From Thiosocius teredinicola (GTDB taxonomy: Bacteria; Pseudomonadota; Gammaproteobacteria; Chromatiales; Chromatiaceae), in assembly GCF_002009425.1 (NCBI RefSeq), contig NZ_CP019936.1, forward strand, positions 2,095,297 to 2,159,296: DNA of 64,000 nucleotides, in the 5' to 3' direction. Below, one piece after another: positions 49,168-64,000 of the stretch. The position numbers and the translations under genes are program-made. Below the pieces are notes generated by a model. The model ran no database searches, was not told the DNA's origin, and saw only the letters and a list, made by a program, of their open reading frames with translations. How positions within the stretch are numbered: position 1 is the stretch's first letter; each line of letters begins with the position of its first letter.

Positions 49168-49886
49168 TGCGCCCACCGCATGTGTGCAACCGGGGTGCGT
49201 TCGATGCGTCCGAGCGGGCGGCCCGGCTTGTCGACGGCAGCCGCGATCTTCGAATGAAAGGCCTCCCGGCCGATCTCGCGCGCGCCGAGGCTCGCGAGAT
49301 GATCGGTGTGGATCTGGCAGTCAATCAGCTGGAAGGGATGTTCGAGGGCAATCTCGGCCAGCTTGGCGAAGGCCAGCTTGGAGGCGTTGGGCTTGCGACT
49401 GAACATGGATTCACCATAGAACATTTCGCCGATAGCGACACCATACAGACCGCCGACCAAAGATTCACCTTGCCAAATCTCGAGCGAGTGGGCGTATCCG
49501 TTGCGATGCAGTTCGCAATAGGCACGGATCATCTCAGGTACCAGCCAGGTACCTTCCTGCTGGCTGCGCGGTGCGGCGCAGGCGCGGATGACACCCTCGA
49601 AGTCGTGGTTGATGCTGACCTCGAAAGCGCCTTGGCGCATCACCTTGCGCAGGCTGCGTGACACGTGCACCTCGTCCGGGTGCAACACCATGCGCGGGGC
49701 GGGGCTCCACCACAGAATGGGCTGGCCTGCGCTGTACCACGGAAAGATGCCCTGCCGGTAGGCCGTCAGAATCCTTTCCTGCAACAGGTCGCCGCCGATG
49801 GCGAGCAGGCCGTTCGGGTCTTTCTCCGCCAGGCGCGTTTCGGGAAAACCGACGTCCGGCGGCGTGCCATCCAAATCGAATATCAC
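49164..49886 (-). CDS. aat: Leucyl/phenylalanyl-tRNA-protein transferase
   Basis: 240 residues. GLLAIGGDLLQERILTAYRQGIFPWY, WWSPAPRMVL, GYAHSLEIWQ and GGLYGVAIGEMFYGESMFSR are diagnostic. Transfers Leu or Phe from tRNA to N-terminal Lys/Arg. GTG start at 49886 overlaps the stop of the upstream gene (GTGA). Confidence 0.95.
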   Translation of the reverse strand: MIFDLDGTPPDVGFPETRLAEKDPNGLLAIGGDLLQERILTAYRQGIFPWYSAGQPILWWSPAPRMVLHPDEVHVSRSLRKVMRQGAFEVSINHDFEGVIRACAAPRSQQEGTWLVPEMIRAYCELHRNGYAHSLEIWQGESLVGGLYGVAIGEMFYGESMFSRKPNASKLAFAKLAEIALEHPFQLIDCQIHTDHLASLGAREIGREAFHSKIAAAVDKPGRPLGRIERTPVAHMRWAQ

Positions 49887-56657: not shown

Positions 56658-57280
56658 TGAAATTCAAGATACTCGTGGCGGCAGGCTTGTACCTGTTGCA
56701 TTCGCTCGCGATAGCGGGCCCGGCGCGCGATGCGCTGGACAACTTCATGCAGGGCCTGTCGACGCTGCAGGCCAAGTTCGAACAATCGGTGCTCGATACC
56801 GAGCAGGCGACGACCGGCCAGATGCACGGCCTGTTTCTGCTCGAACGTCCCGGTCATTTTCGCTGGGACTATGTCTCACCGAACAAGCAGGTGATCCTCG
56901 CCGATGGGCGTGACGTCTGGGTTATCGAAGAAGAGCTCAAGCAGGTCACCCGCCATTATCAGGACTGGGCACTAAAAGGTACGCCGGCGGCGTTTCTCGC
57001 CAACGAGCGTTCAGTGGACGATGACTTCGAGGTCGTCGATATCGGCGAACGGCGTGGCCTTCAGTGGTTGGAACTGATTCCGCGCGACAAGGAAAGCGAT
57101 TTCGTGCGTGTGTTGCTGGCGTTCGAGGGTAATGAGTTGCGCCTGCTCGAGCTGTACGACAACTACGGCCAGATCTCACGCTTCCGCTTCTTCGATGTGC
57201 AGCGCAATGTCCCGATCGATCCCCAACTGTTTGTATACCAGGGTCACGACGACTGGGATGTGTTGCAGGGCGATCGGTAG
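56657..57280 (+). CDS. lolA: Outer-membrane lipoprotein carrier LolA
   Basis: 207 residues, start overlapping the ftsK stop (TGATG). Signal peptide ILVAAGLYLLHSLAIA. LSTLQAKFEQSVLDTEQ, GLFLLERPGHFRWDYVSPN and LLELYDNYGQISRFRFFDVQRN match LolA. Shuttles lipoproteins through the periplasm. ftsK-lolA-rarA is a conserved order; here the next genes downstream are not rarA but a redox operon. Confidence 0.95.
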   Translation: MKFKILVAAGLYLLHSLAIAGPARDALDNFMQGLSTLQAKFEQSVLDTEQATTGQMHGLFLLERPGHFRWDYVSPNKQVILADGRDVWVIEEELKQVTRHYQDWALKGTPAAFLANERSVDDDFEVVDIGERRGLQWLELIPRDKESDFVRVLLAFEGNELRLLELYDNYGQISRFRFFDVQRNVPIDPQLFVYQGHDDWDVLQGDR

Positions 57281-57314
57281 TCGGGCCAAGGCGCCCGGGA
57301 TCTGATTAGCCGGC

Positions 57315-57344
57315 GTCTGCGCGGCCAGCTCATGCCGCGCAGAC
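57315..57344 (-). terminator. Hairpin between convergent lolA and globin operon
   Basis: GTCTGCGCGGC-8 nt-GCCGCGCAGAC: eleven perfect base pairs, no U-run on either side; likely a shared 3' end. Confidence 0.65.
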
Positions 57345-57355
57345 CGGTCGTGTCA

Positions 57356-57781
57356 TCAAGCGGCCGATGCGTCTTTGTACTCGGCACCATCGATCATCAC
57401 TTTGGCGACCGTCGTGTAGGTGACGGTCCATGCCTCTTTGACTTCCGGCGTGAACGCATCGCCGAGACCCTGCTCGAGCGTCCACAGGAAGGCATCGCCC
57501 ACCTTGTCGTAGTCTTCGGCTTTCACGCCGTAGTCGACGTGTGCCTTGCCGGATTGCTTCAACGGCTCGATCAATGATTCGAGATTATCGAGGCCGTTGA
57601 CGGCGGTGTTGAGCATGGCCATCAGCTTGCGGCCCTGTTCTTTCATGTCGCCTTTGAAATACGGCTTCACTTCCGGATATTTCTCGAACAGTCGGCCGTA
57701 GAACAATTCTGCGGCCTGTTCTTTGATCGGCAGAACCTTGATCCACGAATCTTTGACGAGTTGTTTCTGTTGCGGGGTCAT
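57356..57781 (-). CDS. Single-domain globin
   Basis: 141 residues, complete globin fold. Proximal His81 in GKAHVDYGV, distal Gln49 in KEQGRKL, CD1 Phe42 in PYFKGD; these fit flavohaemoglobin/VGB-like myoglobin-type globins rather than truncated ones. AGGAGT precedes the ATG. No reductase domain. Last gene of the five-gene redox operon, 5 bases after the cytochrome stop; NO scavenging or oxygen/NO sensing is a plausible role. Confidence 0.9.
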   Translation of the reverse strand: MTPQQKQLVKDSWIKVLPIKEQAAELFYGRLFEKYPEVKPYFKGDMKEQGRKLMAMLNTAVNGLDNLESLIEPLKQSGKAHVDYGVKAEDYDKVGDAFLWTLEQGLGDAFTPEVKEAWTVTYTTVAKVMIDGAEYKDASAA

Positions 57782-57786
57782 GAATT

Positions 57787-58197
57787 TTACTCCTGGTGCT
57801 TCACGTAATATTCGGCCAGGGTCGCCATGTAGTCGACGGCCAGGCGGACTTCTTCATCGGTCAGTTTGTCGTTGCCGCCGCGTGGCGGCATGTACGTATA
57901 GTCGGGACCGTAAAAACCTTCTATAGCGTGTTGGTACAGCGTGGCCCGGTCTTGGGCGAGGCGAGGACGCCATGCGTCCGGTTCCATCGGGATCGGCGCG
58001 CCGGCGATGCCATAGCCGTGGCAGCCTTCACACGTTCCCAACCAGATGGTGCGTCCCTGCACCAAGGCTTTGTCCTCGAACTGCCGGTACGCCGGGTTGT
58101 CGCCCGCGATAGCTGAAGACATCAGCATCGATAACAACAAGATCAGGCGACCTTGCACGGGATCAGCCTTCAACCGGGATGCGGATAACGACACCAC
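57787..58197 (-). CDS. Periplasmic monohaem c-type cytochrome
   Basis: 136 residues. Hydrophobic export segment LILLLSMLMSSAIAG, one haem site GTCEGCHG, and the distal Met ligand probably in YTYMPPRGG. This is a class I cytochrome c (cytochrome_C_3/CBB3-like). The frame overlaps the end of the DUF3365 gene by 35 bases, showing a tight operon. Likely electron carrier for neighbours. Confidence 0.87.
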   Translation of the reverse strand: MVSLSASRLKADPVQGRLILLLSMLMSSAIAGDNPAYRQFEDKALVQGRTIWLGTCEGCHGYGIAGAPIPMEPDAWRPRLAQDRATLYQHAIEGFYGPDYTYMPPRGGNDKLTDEEVRLAVDYMATLAEYYVKHQE

Positions 58198-58771
58198 CCA
58201 TCACGTCACCGAGTTTGAAATCACGGCGCGGCGTATCTTTGTGGTCGTTGTGGCAAGAGACGCAGACCGGTGCGACTGCCGTGTCGGCGTAGACAGCGGT
58301 GAAGTACTTGGTGCCGCCGAGCTCTTCCACGGTGTAGTAGTTCTGGCCCTTGTTATCGGCAACGAATTTCAGACCGGCTTTTTCGGCCTCGGTCTTGGGT
58401 GCGTTCTGCTTGTTCACCGGCCACATGGACTGCAGCGAGTAGCTGAATTTCACATCCGGCAGCTTCTCGGCGCGCTTGGCAACCAGCTCTGAACCGAAGC
58501 GGAACATCTGGGCGGGCAGCACCAGTGCCTTCTCATCTTCGAAGTGTTCACTGGCGGTGATCACTTTCTCTTTCTTGGCGAGTCGGTTGACGATCTTCTG
58601 CGTGTATACGGTGCGGTCAGAGTCCATAACCAGGTGCAGGGCATCGGCCATGGTCTTCGGAGAGATCATCGGCTTGTCGGCAACGTCCTCGGCAACGCTA
58701 ACGCCGGTCGCGGTGGCGACTGCGCCGAGCAAGGTGAGAGCGATCATGTTTTTGCGGCTGTGTTGTTTCAT
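58163..58771 (-). CDS. Tll0287-like (DUF3365) haem-binding protein
   Basis: 202 residues. Signal peptide NMIALTLLGAVATATGVSVA. The N-terminal half is helical (TVYTQKIVNRLAKKE); the C-terminal part has a PAS-like fold with one CXXCH (VAPVCVSCHNDHKD). Resembles the DUF3365/Tll0287 family, soluble c-type haem proteins or sensor domains found with respiratory systems. Exact role unknown. Gap of 64 bases to the upstream multihaem gene. Confidence 0.85.
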   Translation of the reverse strand: MKQHSRKNMIALTLLGAVATATGVSVAEDVADKPMISPKTMADALHLVMDSDRTVYTQKIVNRLAKKEKVITASEHFEDEKALVLPAQMFRFGSELVAKRAEKLPDVKFSYSLQSMWPVNKQNAPKTEAEKAGLKFVADNKGQNYYTVEELGGTKYFTAVYADTAVAPVCVSCHNDHKDTPRRDFKLGDVMGGVVIRIPVEG

Positions 58772-58835
58772 TACTTTACCTTCTGACTACGAATGTTCCG
58801 GAGAACGAAATGCCGGTCTTCGCCGGCGTTGGGAT

Positions 58836-60239
58836 TCATTGCGCGGCCTCGGCTTTTTCGCGCAGATAGCGTTCCTGGTCGGCGCGTGCGAGATCGAGCG
58901 ATTCGACATGTCTGCTCGGTCGGCCCGTGAAGTTGTTGTCGATCAGCGATTGATCGGCCAGCGCATCGATCGAAAAGCCCAGGCCATGACAATGCAGGCA
59001 GGCTGGGCGGATCATCTTGCTGTTGGGTGACAGCGTCGCGCTCTGGTTGTGATCGACGAGCTTGCGACTCATCCAGTCGTTGACGTCGAAATCGATGCGC
59101 GGCATGTGGCACGTTGCACATGACACGCCGGTGCCGGCATCCGCCTTGCCGCCGACTTCGGCCTGCCACAGTTCGGCATGTGGCGATGCCTCGTAGGCCA
59201 CGGAGTGCTCATCGTTGTGACAGGCGAGGCAGGCATCCACCGCCGCGTAGGCGGCGTCGAAGCGGTGGCCGCCATGGCAGCTGTTGCAGGTCAGTTCGGC
59301 ATGTGCTGCCTTGTCGTTCATCGGCAGGCGTGCCATGTCGGGACGCATCGGTGAAAGGTCGGCGGCCAGGCGCATACCGTGCTTGCCGAGCTTGAAGCGC
59401 GCGACTTCGTGGTTGTGGCAGCTGTTGCAGCCCTCGACACCCGGTTTGTCGACCCAGGCGGTCAGCTCGCCCTGCGCATCGCGCGGCTGATGGCAGGCAC
59501 TGCAATTGACGCCGGCCTTGGCATGCGCCGTCTCCAACCAGTCGCGATCGATCTCTTCGTCGGCTGCGAACTCGGGCGGCGCGTCTTTGTCGGCCAGGGT
59601 GAGCGGTTCGACCGGATAGTGGTCGCGTGGGTACTCCATGATCTCGTCGATGACCGAGCCGAACTCACGCAGCGGTACCTTGGGCTTGTCGCTCAAGTCG
59701 GCGTCGTCCATATGCTTGACGAGAAAGTCGGTATACAGGGCGCGATTGTTGTGAAAGTTGTGGCAGCCTGAATTGGCACAGGTATCGAATGCCATGCCGA
59801 CATGCGATGGTCGGTTTTCGCCGACATCCACGTGGCAGTGGTAGCAGACATCGACAGGCTGCGTAACGCCATTCTTGCGCGTGATCTCCGGCCGGTGTTC
59901 GACGTGACAGCTCACGCATTGCAGGGCATTGATCTTTTCCAGGCGGTCAGCATTGCGCGGGTCTTTAAACTTGGTGCGGGGATGTGAATCGTGCGGTTTG
60001 ACGCGTTCCTCACCGTGACAATCGATACAAGCCTGCTGCAGCACCTCGCCACCACCGAGCGGATCGGTATGGCAGCTGTCGCAGGCGTCGGCGAGTTGGT
60101 GATGGCCGTTGCTCAGCGGTCCCGGCATGAACACGGTTTTGTCACCTGCCTCGAACATCACGTAACCGAACGCGCCGGCCGCACCGAGACTGGCGACAAT
60201 CCATAGCAACCACAGCTTCATCGTTGACTTCTTCGCCAT
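58836..60239 (-). CDS. Membrane-anchored multihaem cytochrome c (11 haem motifs)
   Basis: 467 residues from ATG 60239. One N-terminal helix (KLWLLWIVASLGAAGAFGYV) anchors it facing the periplasm. Ten CXXCH sites are visible (CDSCH, CIDCH, CVSCH, CYHCH, CSACH, CNSCH twice, CLACH, CATCH, CLHCH) plus one CX4CH (CANSGCH), giving up to eleven haems. Many additional His can serve as distal ligands. The pattern suggests the cytochrome c3/NapC-related electron-transfer class rather than a known reductase. Starts 11 bases after the oxidoreductase stop, so it is the probable periplasmic acceptor. Confidence 0.9.
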   Translation of the reverse strand: MAKKSTMKLWLLWIVASLGAAGAFGYVMFEAGDKTVFMPGPLSNGHHQLADACDSCHTDPLGGGEVLQQACIDCHGEERVKPHDSHPRTKFKDPRNADRLEKINALQCVSCHVEHRPEITRKNGVTQPVDVCYHCHVDVGENRPSHVGMAFDTCANSGCHNFHNNRALYTDFLVKHMDDADLSDKPKVPLREFGSVIDEIMEYPRDHYPVEPLTLADKDAPPEFAADEEIDRDWLETAHAKAGVNCSACHQPRDAQGELTAWVDKPGVEGCNSCHNHEVARFKLGKHGMRLAADLSPMRPDMARLPMNDKAAHAELTCNSCHGGHRFDAAYAAVDACLACHNDEHSVAYEASPHAELWQAEVGGKADAGTGVSCATCHMPRIDFDVNDWMSRKLVDHNQSATLSPNSKMIRPACLHCHGLGFSIDALADQSLIDNNFTGRPSRHVESLDLARADQERYLREKAEAAQ

Positions 60240-60250
60240 GTCTGCGCCGC

Positions 60251-62248
60251 TCAGTACCAGTACGTCTTGAAGATGTGCCAGCCGAGCAATGCCGGTACGG
60301 GCCAGAACAACAGGATGTGAAACCACACACTCTGTCGGCGCAGACGGGTCGCGATCGCGCCGCCGATACGGTGTTCAAGTGCGATGACGCCGCTGGAGAA
60401 GCCCCCCAGCAGCAGCATCAGGCTGAAGCTCGCCATCAGCAGAAAGTTCAGGCCGTTACCCAAACGCAGGCCGGTGTGTGCGAGCAGCGTGACCACCACC
60501 AGCAGACCCAGCACGATATGGGCGAGGCGCCAGCCATCGAACTTGCCGAGGCGGTTGAGCACGGGGGTGCGTTTGCGCAGCGAAACCAGCAAGCCGATGA
60601 CGAACAGGCCGAGAATCGTAAAGCCGGTGATCTGTTTGAGCAGGCCGTCGCGCCACAGCACGTCCCAGTGCCACGCGTGCTGCACTGAATCGGCATAGGG
60701 GATGGCTGGCGCGAACAGCATCAGCAGTGCACCGATCAACGCGATGGTGCCGGAGACGAGCAGGGTGCGCGATAACGCGACGGGCTTGAGTGCGCCGCCG
60801 CCGATGAGATCGTTGACCAGCGGCTTGCATGAGCCGCAGACCGAGCTGGCGCCAGTGGCCTTGCAGACCGCTTCTGTGGTGCAGGCCCCCTTGGCGATGG
60901 CGTCGCTCAAGGTGCCGCGCGTGACGTTGGTGCATTGGCACACGATGGTTGTTGCCGGCCAGGCAGCGACGCTCTGGCTGTCTTCGGCCGGCCAGATGAA
61001 ACCGGTGCGCAGAAAACGCATGATCTGCCAGGGCCAGATGACAGCGGTTCGACCGATGAAGGTCTGCAGCCGGACGGTTTCGTTCCAGTCGCCGATGCCG
61101 ATCGCGCCGATCAGTCGATGTTGCTTGACCAGAATCTTGCGGTAGATGCCTTTGTCGTCATCACGGTACACATAGGCCTTGCCGTTGTGCCGGTTCTCGC
61201 CGGCGCCCATCGGTCCCATGCTGAACACCTGGGTACCGACCACCTTGAGGCGCGAAGCAGCGACCGAACCGGCGTAGTGACTTTCGATGCCGGCGATATC
61301 GGCGGCGGCAACGGCGGCCTGTTCCAGGCCCGGTGCGACCAGGCCGTAGACCTCGCCGCGGTGTTCGGCGCATTCACCGACGGCATAGATATCGTCGTCG
61401 GAGGTGCGCATACGGTCATCGACCTGGATGCCGCGACCGAACTTGAGATGGAACTCCTTCGCCAAGCCGATATTGGGGCGGATGCCGGTCGCGACGACGA
61501 TCGTGTCGCACTTGATCGTCAGGCCGGAGCGCAGTTGAACACCGGTGACACGTTCGCCACCCAGCACCTCGGCGACGCCGTCGCCGATGACGACCCGAAC
61601 GCCCAGCGATTCCACGTCGTGTTGCAGTTCGGCAGCGCCGTCTTCGTCGAGCTGGTGACCGAGCAGGCGGTCTGCATGTTCGACGACCGTTACCTGCGTG
61701 TTGGCGCGTTGCATACCGCGCGCCGCTTCCAGACCGAGCAAACCGCCGCCGAGAACCACGGTGTGGTGGCTGCGGACCCGGCGAGCCAGCAGCTTGTTGG
61801 TGTCGTCGAGATCGCGGAAGGTGAACACGCCGCTCTTGTCGATGCCTGGGATATTCGGCACAAATGGTGACGACCCCGTCGCCAGGATCAATCTGGAATA
61901 CGGTTGTACCTGGCCGCTGTTGTCGGTGATCCGCTTGTGGTCGCGATCGATCGATTCGACCCGGTAGCCGATGCGTTCTTCGAAGCATGCGCCGAGCGGC
62001 GGATCAAGCGGTTGTGCCAGACCTTGCCAGTCGACCTCGCCGGCGAGCCAGGATGACAAACGGACGCGGTTGTAGGGTTCGTGTTGTTCGTCGCCGTAGA
62101 TGATGACGGACTGCCCGGGCAGCCGCTGCAGCAACTCGCGAGCCACGCGCATACCGACCGGGCCGTTGCCGACGACCACGATGGGGGCGACCGGTGCCGA
62201 TGCTTCGGCTGCCTGCGAGGGGCTCAGCGCTTCTGCGACCTGGCTCAT
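60251..62248 (-). CDS. NirB-like FAD/NAD(P)-BFD-membrane b-haem oxidoreductase
   Basis: 665 residues from MSQVAEALSPS (62248); frames from 62281 or earlier are less likely. FAD motif IVVVGNGPVGMR (about 23-34), ATGSSPFVPNIPG, NAD motif VVLGGGLLGLEAARG (about 168) and FAD motif DDIYAVGECAEH match the front of assimilatory NirB. BFD-type [2Fe-2S] site: CQC at about 434-436 and CGSC at about 470. The siroheme domains of NirB are absent; instead five to six helices follow with H-X13-H pairs His577/His591 and His644/His658, the pattern for two stacked b haems as in ferric reductases and NOX. Predicted to pass NAD(P)H electrons across the membrane. Partial family match only; reaction unknown. Confidence 0.85.
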   Translation of the reverse strand: MSQVAEALSPSQAAEASAPVAPIVVVGNGPVGMRVARELLQRLPGQSVIIYGDEQHEPYNRVRLSSWLAGEVDWQGLAQPLDPPLGACFEERIGYRVESIDRDHKRITDNSGQVQPYSRLILATGSSPFVPNIPGIDKSGVFTFRDLDDTNKLLARRVRSHHTVVLGGGLLGLEAARGMQRANTQVTVVEHADRLLGHQLDEDGAAELQHDVESLGVRVVIGDGVAEVLGGERVTGVQLRSGLTIKCDTIVVATGIRPNIGLAKEFHLKFGRGIQVDDRMRTSDDDIYAVGECAEHRGEVYGLVAPGLEQAAVAAADIAGIESHYAGSVAASRLKVVGTQVFSMGPMGAGENRHNGKAYVYRDDDKGIYRKILVKQHRLIGAIGIGDWNETVRLQTFIGRTAVIWPWQIMRFLRTGFIWPAEDSQSVAAWPATTIVCQCTNVTRGTLSDAIAKGACTTEAVCKATGASSVCGSCKPLVNDLIGGGALKPVALSRTLLVSGTIALIGALLMLFAPAIPYADSVQHAWHWDVLWRDGLLKQITGFTILGLFVIGLLVSLRKRTPVLNRLGKFDGWRLAHIVLGLLVVVTLLAHTGLRLGNGLNFLLMASFSLMLLLGGFSSGVIALEHRIGGAIATRLRRQSVWFHILLFWPVPALLGWHIFKTYWY

Positions 62249-62313
62249 GTGACTGCTCAAACTTCCACTACTGGCAAACATCAATGGGGCAAGCAACGGA
62301 AACGGCGAACAAC

Positions 62314-62363
62314 AAAAAAGGCACCGATGCAATCTGCGGTTACGCAGATGCAAGGGCGCCTTT
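62314..62363 (-). terminator. Intrinsic terminator in the leader of the redox operon
   Basis: Minus strand: AAAGGCGCCC...GGTGCCTTT outer stem with inner TTGCATCTGCG-taac-CGCAGATTGCA, followed by six U (62319-62314), 66 bases before the first start codon. As it lies downstream of the promoter it must be read through, i.e. it is an attenuator. Confidence 0.88.
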
Positions 62364-62370
62364 GCCTAAT

Positions 62371-62418
62371 GACCAACGTTGGTCAACCAGATTGTGTTCG
62401 CCGCAGCAACGTTGCTGC
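62371..62418 (-). promoter_or_regulatory. Dual-hairpin ANTAR antiterminator target
   Basis: Two stem-loops in order: GCAGC-AACGUU-GCUGC (62418-62403) and GACC-AACGUU-GGUC (62384-62371; an extra U-A pair possible), 18 bases apart, upstream of the terminator. Both hexaloops have A at position 1 and G at position 4, the recognition rule of ANTAR RNA-binding proteins such as NasR and NasT. Confidence 0.8.
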
Positions 62419-62435
62419 TTGCTGTCTAACGAAAT

Positions 62436-62451
62436 AGCAAATGCGGTGCCA
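62436..62451 (-). promoter_or_regulatory. Sigma-54 promoter of the redox operon
   Basis: Minus strand TGGCACCGCATTTGCT, nearly identical to consensus TGGCACG-N4-TTGCW with exact GG-N10-GC spacing. Start of transcription expected near 62425, a few bases before the first ANTAR hairpin. Confidence 0.82.
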
Positions 62452-62584
62452 GAACTTAAGATACGGATTAAATCGTCTGTTGTTCAACGGTTTAGCTTTG
62501 GCGAGACGGTTCGCCCAGATGCGAACTACATTGCAAATTGAGCTAAGTCAGTGCACGTGATTTCGCCTTGGGCCCTCAAACAGT

Positions 62585-62599
62585 GCGCCTGTGCGGCGC
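62585..62599. promoter_or_regulatory. Possible enhancer-binding site (NtrC-like)
   Basis: GCGCC-TGTGC-GGCGC, a perfect inverted repeat with the 5-base spacing of NtrC sites (GCACC-N5-GGTGC) but one different base per half. Centred about 166 bases upstream of the predicted sigma-54 start site. Confidence 0.35.
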
Positions 62600-62650
62600 G
62601 ATCGCGTGGTGGCAGGCGCAATTGTGGCGCATCGAATACATGGGCACGGA

Positions 62651-62656
62651 TACAAT
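62651..62656 (+). promoter_or_regulatory. -10 box of rarA
   Basis: TACAAT located 8 bases before the rarA ATG; predicts a leaderless or near-leaderless mRNA. Confidence 0.45.
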
Positions 62657-62664
62657 AGCGCGCT

Positions 62665-64000
62665 ATGTACGCAGACGATTTATTCGACGACCCGGACCGT
62701 GCACTGCAGGGGCGCCCGCTGGCCGACCGTATGCGCCCGGCGACATTGCAGGAATACATGGGGCAGGAGCACCTGCTGGGTGAGGGCAAGGCATTGCGCC
62801 GTGCGATCGAGACCGGGCGTTTGCATTCGATGATCTTTTGGGGACCACCCGGTACCGGCAAGACGACGCTTGCGCGTCTGTTGGCGGGTCGATCCGGCTA
62901 TGCATTCGAAACCCTGTCGGCTGTGCTGGCGGGTGTGAAAGACATTCGCGCTGCCGTCGATAAGGCGCGCCAGATACGGGCGCAGAGCGGCAAGGGAACC
63001 GTGCTATTCATCGATGAGGTGCACCGCTTCAACAAGAGTCAACAGGACGCGTTTCTGCCGCACGTCGAAGACGGCACGCTGTTGTTCGTCGGCGCGACCA
63101 CCGAGAACCCATCGTTCGAGTTGAACAATGCGCTGTTATCACGTGCGCGTGTCTACGTGCTCAAGTCGTTGCAGCGTGACGCGATCGAGGCGTTGCTGAA
63201 TCGGGCCCTCAACGACACCGAGCGCGGGCTGGGTGAGCTGAAACTGAAGATCAGCGACACTGCGATGCAACTGCTGGCCGATGCCGCAGACGGCGACGCC
63301 AGACGTGCAATCAACCTGCTGGAGATTGCTGCGGATCTGGCAACGGACGGCCGAATCGACGACGAAGCCGTCGGCGAAGTGGTTGCGGGGCAGGTCCGGC
63401 GCTTCGATAAAGGTGGCGAGGCGTTCTATGACCAGATATCCGCCTTGCACAAATCCGTACGCGGCTCATCGCCCGACGGTGCGTTGTACTGGTTGTGTCG
63501 CATGCTCGATGGCGGTTGCGATGCTTTATATATCGCACGCCGGGTCGTGCGCATGGCATCCGAAGACATCGGCAACGCCGACCCGCGCGGCCTGGAACTC
63601 GCACTGAACGCCTGGCAGGTTCAGGAGCGTCTCGGCAGTCCTGAGGGGGAACTGGCAATCGCCCAGGCAGTCGCTTACCTCGCCTGCGCCGCCAAGAGCA
63701 ACGCGGTGTACAGCGCCTTCAACGAGGCGATGGCCGCTGCCAAGCAGTCGGGTTCGCTGGAAGTACCGATCCACCTGCGCAACGCACCGACGCGTTTGAT
63801 GAAAGAACTGGGCTACGGCAAAGCCTACCGCTACGCCCACGATGAACCTGGGGCCTATGCCGCCGGTGAGACTTATCTGCCCGACGAACTCGCCGCGCGT
63901 CGCTTCTATCATCCGGTCGACCGCGGTCTCGAAATCAAGATCGGCGAAAAACTCGATCAATTGCGCGCGTTGGATGAGAAGGCGGGCAAATCGCCGTCCG
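62665..64000 (+). CDS. rarA: Replication-associated recombination protein A (3' end at window edge)
   Basis: 445 codons are visible without a stop, about the full family length, so only a few residues are missing. AAA+ ATPase of the RarA/MgsA/WRNIP1 family: LADRMRPATLQEYMGQEHLLGEG, Walker A FWGPPGTGKTT, Walker B VLFIDEVHRFNKSQQDAFLPH, sensor 1 GATTENPSFELNNALLSR, and the tetramerisation part ALYWLCRMLDGGCDALYIARR. Acts at stalled forks. No ribosome site precedes the ATG. Confidence 0.95.
   Translation, partial: MYADDLFDDPDRALQGRPLADRMRPATLQEYMGQEHLLGEGKALRRAIETGRLHSMIFWGPPGTGKTTLARLLAGRSGYAFETLSAVLAGVKDIRAAVDKARQIRAQSGKGTVLFIDEVHRFNKSQQDAFLPHVEDGTLLFVGATTENPSFELNNALLSRARVYVLKSLQRDAIEALLNRALNDTERGLGELKLKISDTAMQLLADAADGDARRAINLLEIAADLATDGRIDDEAVGEVVAGQVRRFDKGGEAFYDQISALHKSVRGSSPDGALYWLCRMLDGGCDALYIARRVVRMASEDIGNADPRGLELALNAWQVQERLGSPEGELAIAQAVAYLACAAKSNAVYSAFNEAMAAAKQSGSLEVPIHLRNAPTRLMKELGYGKAYRYAHDEPGAYAAGETYLPDELAARRFYHPVDRGLEIKIGEKLDQLRALDEKAGKSPS

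Follow-up and report, generated by a model that had tools for sequence, protein, structure and literature searches.

What would an operon achieve that joins an NAD(P)H-oxidizing flavoprotein to a series of periplasmic haem proteins, and to what acceptor would its electrons pass? The question is raised by five genes at positions 57356–62451, minus strand, of a 64,000-nucleotide stretch of the Thiosocius teredinicola genome (contig NZ_CP019936.1, positions 2,095,297 to 2,159,296), referred to here as the window. A preliminary description had taken these same-strand genes for a transmembrane electron-transfer operon under nitrate-type control; the place and make-up of the operon are confirmed, and the interpretation is supported. 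From the first gene to the fifth the spacings are 11 bases, 64 bases, an overlap of 35 bases, and 5 bases. The reading we tentatively prefer, at somewhat less than an even chance, is that of an accessory operon of nitrate assimilation that exports electrons, with nitric oxide (NO) or nitrite as the likely acceptor.

There is good reason to treat these genes as one module. Five aligned 11-haem proteins, used as query against GTDB genomes, returned 235 related loci; locus counts given below refer to the best 80 of the 235, the neighboring gene calls are rough, script-made ones, and one of the alignments, A4, was limited to 23 rows picked for spread. Hosts among these best 80 include Gamma-, Beta- and Alphaproteobacteria, Verrucomicrobia, Poribacteria and Nitrospirota, and thus the gene set recurs across phyla; co-occurrence among close relatives alone, which the preliminary description had named as telling against a distinct system, is not what is seen. 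The cytochrome b gene directly precedes the 11-haem gene in 79/79 loci reaching far enough, and a DUF3365 gene directly follows it in 73/77, lying upstream and up to 7 kb away in the other four (L093, L094, L097 and L102). A globin gene, single-domain or truncated, is found within 4.5 kb in 61/73 loci. The core is therefore the cytochrome b protein, the 11-haem protein and the DUF3365 protein; a monohaem cytochrome and a globin are frequent companions that are not obligate, because the former is missing or unrecognized in 38/80 loci and the latter is not seen within 4.5 kb in 12/73. That unrelated redox genes came to lie here side by side by chance is next to impossible, contradicted as it is by a gene order shared across phyla.

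The first gene (60251–62248, minus strand; 665 residues from an ATG) encodes a NirB/NasC-like FAD–NAD(P)H oxidoreductase with a BFD-type [2Fe-2S] domain (Pfam Pyr_redox_2, Rubredoxin_C and Fer2_BFD) fused to a membrane cytochrome b domain; an alternative longer frame, opening with a TTG at 62353, would extend into the leader. The protein is not a NirB, as it is without the sirohaem half and the NirB model covers it only with positions 1–465 of 794, at 398.6 bits against a cut-off of 578.35. Across 71 sequences (alignment A3: 73 less L037, L055 and L077, with the window sequence added), the glycines of the nucleotide site, the BFD cysteines 437, 439, 471 and 474, and histidines 577, 591, 644 and 658 of the membrane part are invariant. 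These histidines form two HX13H pairs within helices of the AlphaFold2 model (mean predicted local distance difference test score, pLDDT, 91.9), in which the membrane part has five long helices, four by a hydropathy script, and its positively charged loops are compatible with a flavin side in the cytoplasm. No Pfam family matched the b-haem domain above its cut-off (PF01794 reached 15.5 bits against 28), and a PDB search with this domain matched none up to an expectation value (E) of 10. The 50 best of 1794 Foldseek matches to the whole protein were flavoproteins aligned over at most 440 columns, and so leave the membrane half uninformed.

The second gene (58836–60239, minus strand; 467 residues) encodes a c-type cytochrome with an N-terminal membrane anchor. 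The count of eleven haem motifs given by the preliminary description is borne out as ten CXXCH and one CX4CH, kept in 70/70 sequences (of 81, those of at most 380 residues in one frame having been dropped; alignment A2 holds 68 rows, from 69 less the near-duplicate L055 and the truncated L075 and with the window added). Eleven further histidines are conserved, H46 in 69/69 sequences with a residue there and ten others in 70/70, and the next most kept histidine, H176, is found in 67/70. Because this amounts to one extra conserved histidine per haem, the pattern suggests that every haem would be six-coordinate, and that the protein serves to conduct or store electrons rather than as an enzyme. 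The succession claimed at the outset, from NAD(P)H through FAD, a [2Fe-2S] cluster and two b haems to multihaem c, fits the invariant ligands of these first two proteins, and none of the five operon proteins matched the Pfam NapC_NirT domain of the quinol dehydrogenases NapC, NrfH and CymA at E 0.05.

It might instead be supposed that the 11-haem or the DUF3365 protein is an assimilatory catalyst, reducing nitrite (or hydroxylamine) to ammonium in the periplasm. Parts of the C-terminal half of the 11-haem protein are remotely similar to NrfA, eight-haem nitrite reductase and hydroxylamine oxidoreductase (HAO); the profile matches to the first two cover short stretches, and the best Foldseek match of the haem-free AlphaFold2 model (pLDDT 85.3; predicted template-modelling score 0.84) is HAO, with E 1.6e-3 and a template-modelling score of 0.28. 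NrfA-type nitrite reductases have an open active-site haem, bound in most of them by CXXCK. That motif occurs in 0/70 sequences of this family, the protein stays outside NrfA at 21.8 bits against the PF02335 cut-off of 24.1, and the extra histidines suggest that no haem is left open. Only generic c3/c7-type multihaem matches exceeded a Pfam cut-off, and no NCBIfam cut-off was passed. Genomes bearing the module mostly hold NirB as well, as detailed below, and a periplasmic ammonium-forming reductase is, on balance, decidedly unlikely.

The third gene (58163–58771, minus strand; 202 residues) encodes a stand-alone monohaem c protein of the DUF3365/Tll0287-like type that belongs to sCache_heme, with PF11845 at 67.6 bits against a cut-off of 24.1 and the CXXCH cysteine pair and histidine kept in 79/79 sequences. 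It is the most conserved member of the operon, with a mean identity to the window protein of 66% (78 loci) against 46–59% for the others. The family has no conserved cysteine outside CXXCH, and 29/79 members have no other cysteine at all. A second DUF3365 protein of the same genome (L001:1414–1980; C1:3796465) matches Tll0287 (5B82) and retains its cysteine; it was considered as part of a second module and rejected, having no partner genes in the 3.5 kb covered. The cysteine common to L001 and 5B82 is probably an axial ligand, and in a distant alignment its position is held by proline in 78/79 relatives of the third gene, followed by a conserved Ala-Gln-Met. The family thus falls outside the Tll0287 subtype with its axial cysteine, and the conserved methionine could be a haem ligand. 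Since this is the only periplasmic haem to which no sixth ligand can be assigned, the DUF3365 protein, together with the small cytochrome c, appears to be the best candidate for the acceptor site.

That small cytochrome is encoded by the fourth gene (57787–58197, minus strand; GTG start, 136 residues; Cytochrome_CBB3, 5.6e-11), and its Met103, present in 43/43 sequences, suits a His/Met electron carrier. Such a carrier is what one would look for in a redox overflow valve, in which NAD(P)H in excess during nitrate feeding is drained to a terminal oxidase by way of the 11-haem protein and then the small cytochrome c. The monohaem cytochrome is, as already seen, missing or unrecognized in nearly half of the loci, and no terminal oxidase was seen among those of the shared neighbor clusters that were identified; we give the valve a slim prospect.

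The fifth gene (57356–57781, minus strand; 141 residues) encodes a single-domain globin whose N-terminus is not hydrophobic (PF00042, 69.1 bits against a cut-off of 22; best PDB matches 3wfw and 3s1i). Tyr28 and Gln49 are kept in 62/62 sequences, and His81 and Tyr91 in 61/62. By their offset to Hmp we take these to be TyrB10, GlnE7, HisF8 and TyrG5, and presumably they correspond to its NO-dioxygenase pocket, so that the protein has the residues expected of a putative NO-dioxygenase-type single-domain globin.

The leader ties these genes to nitrate assimilation. An exact sigma-54 type -24/-12 element (TGGCACN5TTGC; 62437–62451, minus strand, as are all elements of the leader) has GG and GC at the right spacing and is a predicted promoter. 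Two exact matches occur in the window, one of them this one; with up to two mismatches the window holds 88 against 79 by chance, which is no excess. In orthologous leaders the pattern is enriched, exactly matched in 9/72 against 14/2100 background windows and with at most one mismatch in 36/72 against 60/2100. Downstream follow a hexaloop hairpin (GCAGC[AACGTT]GCTGC, 62403–62418, from a hairpin scan, with its stem present in the fold), a probable ANTAR P1 hairpin (TGACC[AACGTT]GGTCA, 62370–62385, by hairpin scan, fold and the A1/G4 rule) and a probable P2 hairpin found by pattern scan (GGC[AAAGGC]GCC, 62355–62366), whose stem of 3 bp overlaps the 5' arm of an intrinsic terminator (P2 and terminator together, GGCGCC ... 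GGTGCC TTTTTT, 62314–62370, by the fold and a covariance model, R1). The loop of the upstream hairpin likewise has A1 and G4. The marks of an ANTAR target, according to one study, are A1 and G4 in the loop, stems of at least 3 bp and a second hairpin overlapping a terminator (PMC3369931), and the leader carries dual hexaloop hairpins with all of them. One further A1/G4 hexaloop hairpin pair occurs in the window, at 49559. Orthologous leaders yield hairpin pairs in 13/68 cases against 23/1721 background windows with perfect stems, and in 19/72 against 31/2100 in a looser scan. P2 followed by a T-run gave 34 matches in leaders and 37 elsewhere in 2.62 Mb (both strands), many of these 37 preceding nas genes.

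The counterpart of this leader lies before the genome's own nas operon, and the earlier claim of a sigma-54, ANTAR and terminator leader as in nas operons has proved real. R1 was built from 34 leaders of other genomes (alignment A5: 34/46, with 12 duplicates, atypical or very short ones dropped), excluding both the window and the nas leader; the P2 pattern that selected them was devised after the window leader had been seen, so R1 is independent in its training sequences and not in its conception. In the 4.79 Mb genome it made three matches, with rough E-values: the nas leader came first (27.9 bits, E 0.007), the window leader second (25.6 bits, E 0.027), and third a plain terminator that separates convergent genes (25.1 bits, E 0.035), a match which marks the model's limit. 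The nas leader also has an exact sigma-54 match (L126:2593), and hairpins and GACAATGGCGTC ahead of its terminator; the z-scores of the RNA folds are -6.17 for the window leader and -3.49 for the nas leader. The genome, a single contig, holds this nas cluster at 1.30–1.31 Mb, about 0.84 Mb from the operon. The cluster comprises a NasT-like ANTAR regulator, NrtA, NrtB, NrtC, a second NMT1_2 protein (NasS-like), NirB, NirD, a molybdopterin reductase and MobB. NasT and NasS were assigned by architecture and place, and NrtB, NrtC and NirD by place and similarity to clusters of related loci; NirB passes its curated cut-off. The molybdopterin reductase is named a nitrate reductase from its place in the cluster, its matches to formate dehydrogenase (499.7 bits) and assimilatory NasC (468 bits) both being under cut-off. 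The genome's only ANTAR protein heads the cluster, with the NasS-like protein four genes on, and regulator and leaders of one kind are thus present together.

The same association is seen in other genomes. Counted by similarity to the genes of the T. teredinicola genome, by which distant homologs may have been missed, the 80 loci contain NasT-like ANTAR genes in 26 cases, NrtB in 25, NrtA/NasS in 32, NirB in 8, NirD in 7 and NasA in 10; at least one nas gene is present in 38/80 loci, and in 31/57 of those longer than 15 kb. The 11-haem gene (E<=1e-40) was found in 22 of 274 gammaproteobacterial genomes drawn evenly, about 8%. An ANTAR protein is present in 19/22 of these module genomes and in 68/252 others (Fisher p 5e-8), and full-length NirB in 18/22 and 106/252 (Fisher p 5e-4), with independence inflated by kinship in both tests. 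NasA-like matches (E<=1e-120) occur in 19/22 module genomes, 14 of them at least 50% identical to the T. teredinicola enzyme; in the remaining five (G049, G079, G160, G190 and G301) identity is only 36–38%, and in G049, G079 and G160 the match lies beside NirB. The exceptions are G016, G172 and G213 for ANTAR, G044, G086, G162 and G213 for NirB, and G044, G172 and G213 for the NasA-like match. In G044, G086 and G162 a further long NIR_SIR protein is present that could be a nitrite or sulfite reductase, a distribution that again tells against the module itself making ammonium from nitrite. The idea that the module replaces NirB was rejected on the same count of 18/22. Co-occurrence with NirB, NasA and ANTAR implies that the module goes with nitrate assimilation without taking the place of its enzymes.

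Accompaniment of this kind may also be pictured with the electrons running inward, from periplasmic cytochromes that receive them from the respiratory chain or from sulfur oxidation, through the 11-haem protein, the b haems and the [2Fe-2S] cluster, to nitrate or nitrite reductase, sparing NAD(P)H. The first protein resembles the kind of FAD and BFD protein that acts as donor in nas systems, and the genome's own nas cluster shows no gene for a separate donor, because the NirB model matches there only NirB and the BFD stretch of the nitrate reductase. The potentials of nitrate and nitrite would permit electrons to come from c-type cytochromes, and several hosts are, from their names, what we take to be sulfur oxidizers or phototrophs. 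Such import is nevertheless unlikely, given that Pelagicoccus and Cerasicoccus, presumably heterotrophs, carry the module too, that the nucleotide-site glycines of the first protein are invariant, and that the globin and the Rrf2 regulators found near some modules would be left unexplained.

Export of electrons in the service of nitrate assimilation, our preferred reading, might proceed as follows. Nitrogen limitation would start transcription through sigma-54, and nitrate or nitrite would be sensed by NasS–NasT, with NasT holding the ANTAR hairpins so that the terminator is not formed. The first protein would pass hydride from NAD(P)H to FAD, and electrons on through the BFD [2Fe-2S] cluster and two membrane b haems to the 11-haem cytochrome; this protein, periplasmic and anchored to the membrane, would store and distribute them. 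The DUF3365 protein, with the small cytochrome c, would meet the acceptor, most likely NO or nitrite arising or leaking in nitrate and nitrite reduction, and on the inner side the cytoplasmic globin would remove NO, possibly with the FAD protein as its reductase. In Bradyrhizobium japonicum, nitrate reductase is reported to be transcribed together with a globin and a flavoprotein (narK-bjgb-flp-nasC) under NasS–NasT, the globin mutant is NO-sensitive, and globin and flavoprotein protect from the NO of nitrate assimilation (PMC4724949). Five loci (L071, L093, L094, L097 and L102) have an Rrf2-cluster gene beside the DUF3365 or globin gene, and NsrR was its best or nearly best match in 4/4 tested. 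On account of this parallel, the Rrf2 neighbors and two possibly open haems, one on each side of the membrane, a role in protection from NO or nitrite seems the first choice. A more specific proposal, that the module is a quinone-independent, NAD(P)H-driven exporter to a dedicated 11-haem cytochrome, with the DUF3365 protein as terminal NO or nitrite enzyme and not as a sensor or carrier, and is wired by NasT to nitrate assimilation across phyla, is attractive and doubtful.

A number of observations weigh against export to NO or nitrite. The choice of these substrates is a reading of sequence features, and in the 11-haem protein one of the invariant histidines might not be a ligand, in which case one haem would be open. 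Neither companions nor the nas link are constant, in that 12/73 loci are without a globin within 4.5 kb, a monohaem cytochrome is recognized in only 42/80, 42/80 show no nas gene, and G213 has two core sets yet no ANTAR protein, NirB or NasA-like match. All of the Rrf2 matches are under the curated NsrR cut-off, and no convincing NsrR box was found near the DUF3365 or FAD gene in the eight loci scanned, which gave one match with two mismatches in L093 and one match in L084, the background giving 9 in 85 kb. P2 with a T-run precedes the first gene in only 29/72 loci, an Rfam scan of 57000–63500 listed none up to E 1, and the P1–P2 linker of the window, 3–5 bases, is short for an ANTAR target. 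In Enterococcus faecalis targets, linkers of 5–12 bases are reported to work and one of 3 bases to impair induction (PMC3369931). Finally, a stand-alone sCache_heme protein of Pseudomonas putida was found to be a weak binder of NO and was interpreted as a redox protein (PMC12889525), findings that argue as well against a simple sensor role for the DUF3365 protein.

Variation around the module is considerable. In the window, the plus-strand flanks look like rarA upstream and ftsK-lolA downstream. G213, which has the usual core set on one contig (L130), has on another a GPP34 (GOLPH3-like) domain (L131:4986–6236; 6.3e-42) joined to a membrane domain related to that of the cytochrome b protein; an 11-haem-like gene and DUF3365 come next, and no FAD or [2Fe-2S] part is seen there. 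A porin-like outer-membrane gene often adjoins the module, after it in L128, L129, L133, L044 and L096 and before it in L038, L066, L098 and L110; the sole member scanned against Pfam, that of L098, is Alginate_exp, and the porin is perhaps a pore for nitrate or nitrite. Cytochrome c assembly genes (ResB and Cytochrom_C_asm; L094:5082–8017) lie between a truncated globin and the first gene in L094. Upstream of the module in L047, on the opposite strand (L047:4193–6748), are two Rrf2-cluster regulators, a truncated globin and an apparent 2Fe-2S/FAD reductase. A gene for a PP2C phosphatase/protein kinase, named by Pfam in L071, the one locus scanned, is found near the module in L058, L061, L066, L070 and L071, adjoining a NarK-type transporter in 4/5 of these loci.

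To our knowledge, known feeders of periplasmic multihaem cytochromes use quinol, and a direct NAD(P)H route, if true, would amount to bioenergetic wiring of a new kind. In about 8% of the sampled gammaproteobacterial genomes, and in members of several other phyla, nitrate assimilation seems to be coupled with a membrane electron conduit, which makes the way in which organisms that assimilate nitrate deal with NO and nitrite an experimentally approachable question in cultured hosts, among them Sedimenticola hydrogenitrophicus, Filomicrobium insigne, Cerasicoccus frondis and Halochromatium glycolicum. Stand-alone DUF3365 proteins, nearly half of their family (PMC12889525), would at the same time gain a metabolic setting.

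Compared with known systems, the module is familiar in its parts. NasC consists of FAD and NAD(P)H domains and a BFD cluster, and the first protein shares these domains with NasC/Flp and the N-terminal modules of NirB; it differs in having no sirohaem domain and in being fused to a membrane b-haem domain, and is thus no soluble donor. Ferric reductases and NOX enzymes pass electrons from NAD(P)H through FAD to two b haems held by histidine pairs about 13–14 apart in two transmembrane helices. The two HX13H pairs resemble this arrangement, whereas the flavin family is another, a [2Fe-2S] cluster is added, PF01794 stays below cut-off, and the partner is apparently an 11-haem c protein. The likeness of the second protein to NrfA, eight-haem nitrite reductase and HAO, in sequence and fold, is remote and confined to parts of its C-terminal half, and it differs from them in having eleven haem motifs and, for every one of these, a candidate second histidine. 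The third protein passes PF11845 like the stand-alone sCache_heme proteins (PMC12889525), and differs in having no conserved cysteine beyond CXXCH and proline at the Tll0287-shared position. The B. japonicum operon is alike in its NasS–NasT control, its single-domain globin and FAD/NAD(P)H oxidoreductase and its tie to nitrate assimilation; it differs in including the nitrate reductase, and no membrane cytochrome b, multihaem cytochrome or DUF3365 protein is named in it (PMC4724949). As the preliminary description had held, no published complex of identical composition was found, in a search of the open-access literature that left subscription journals mostly outside its coverage. The module lacks a defining feature of each of NirB, NasC/Flp, NrfA, NapC and ferric reductase, and it has those of the ANTAR leader, DUF3365 and the globin; its parts come from known families, their assembly is without a described counterpart in the literature searched, and it is as a proposed wiring scheme that we regard the module as new.

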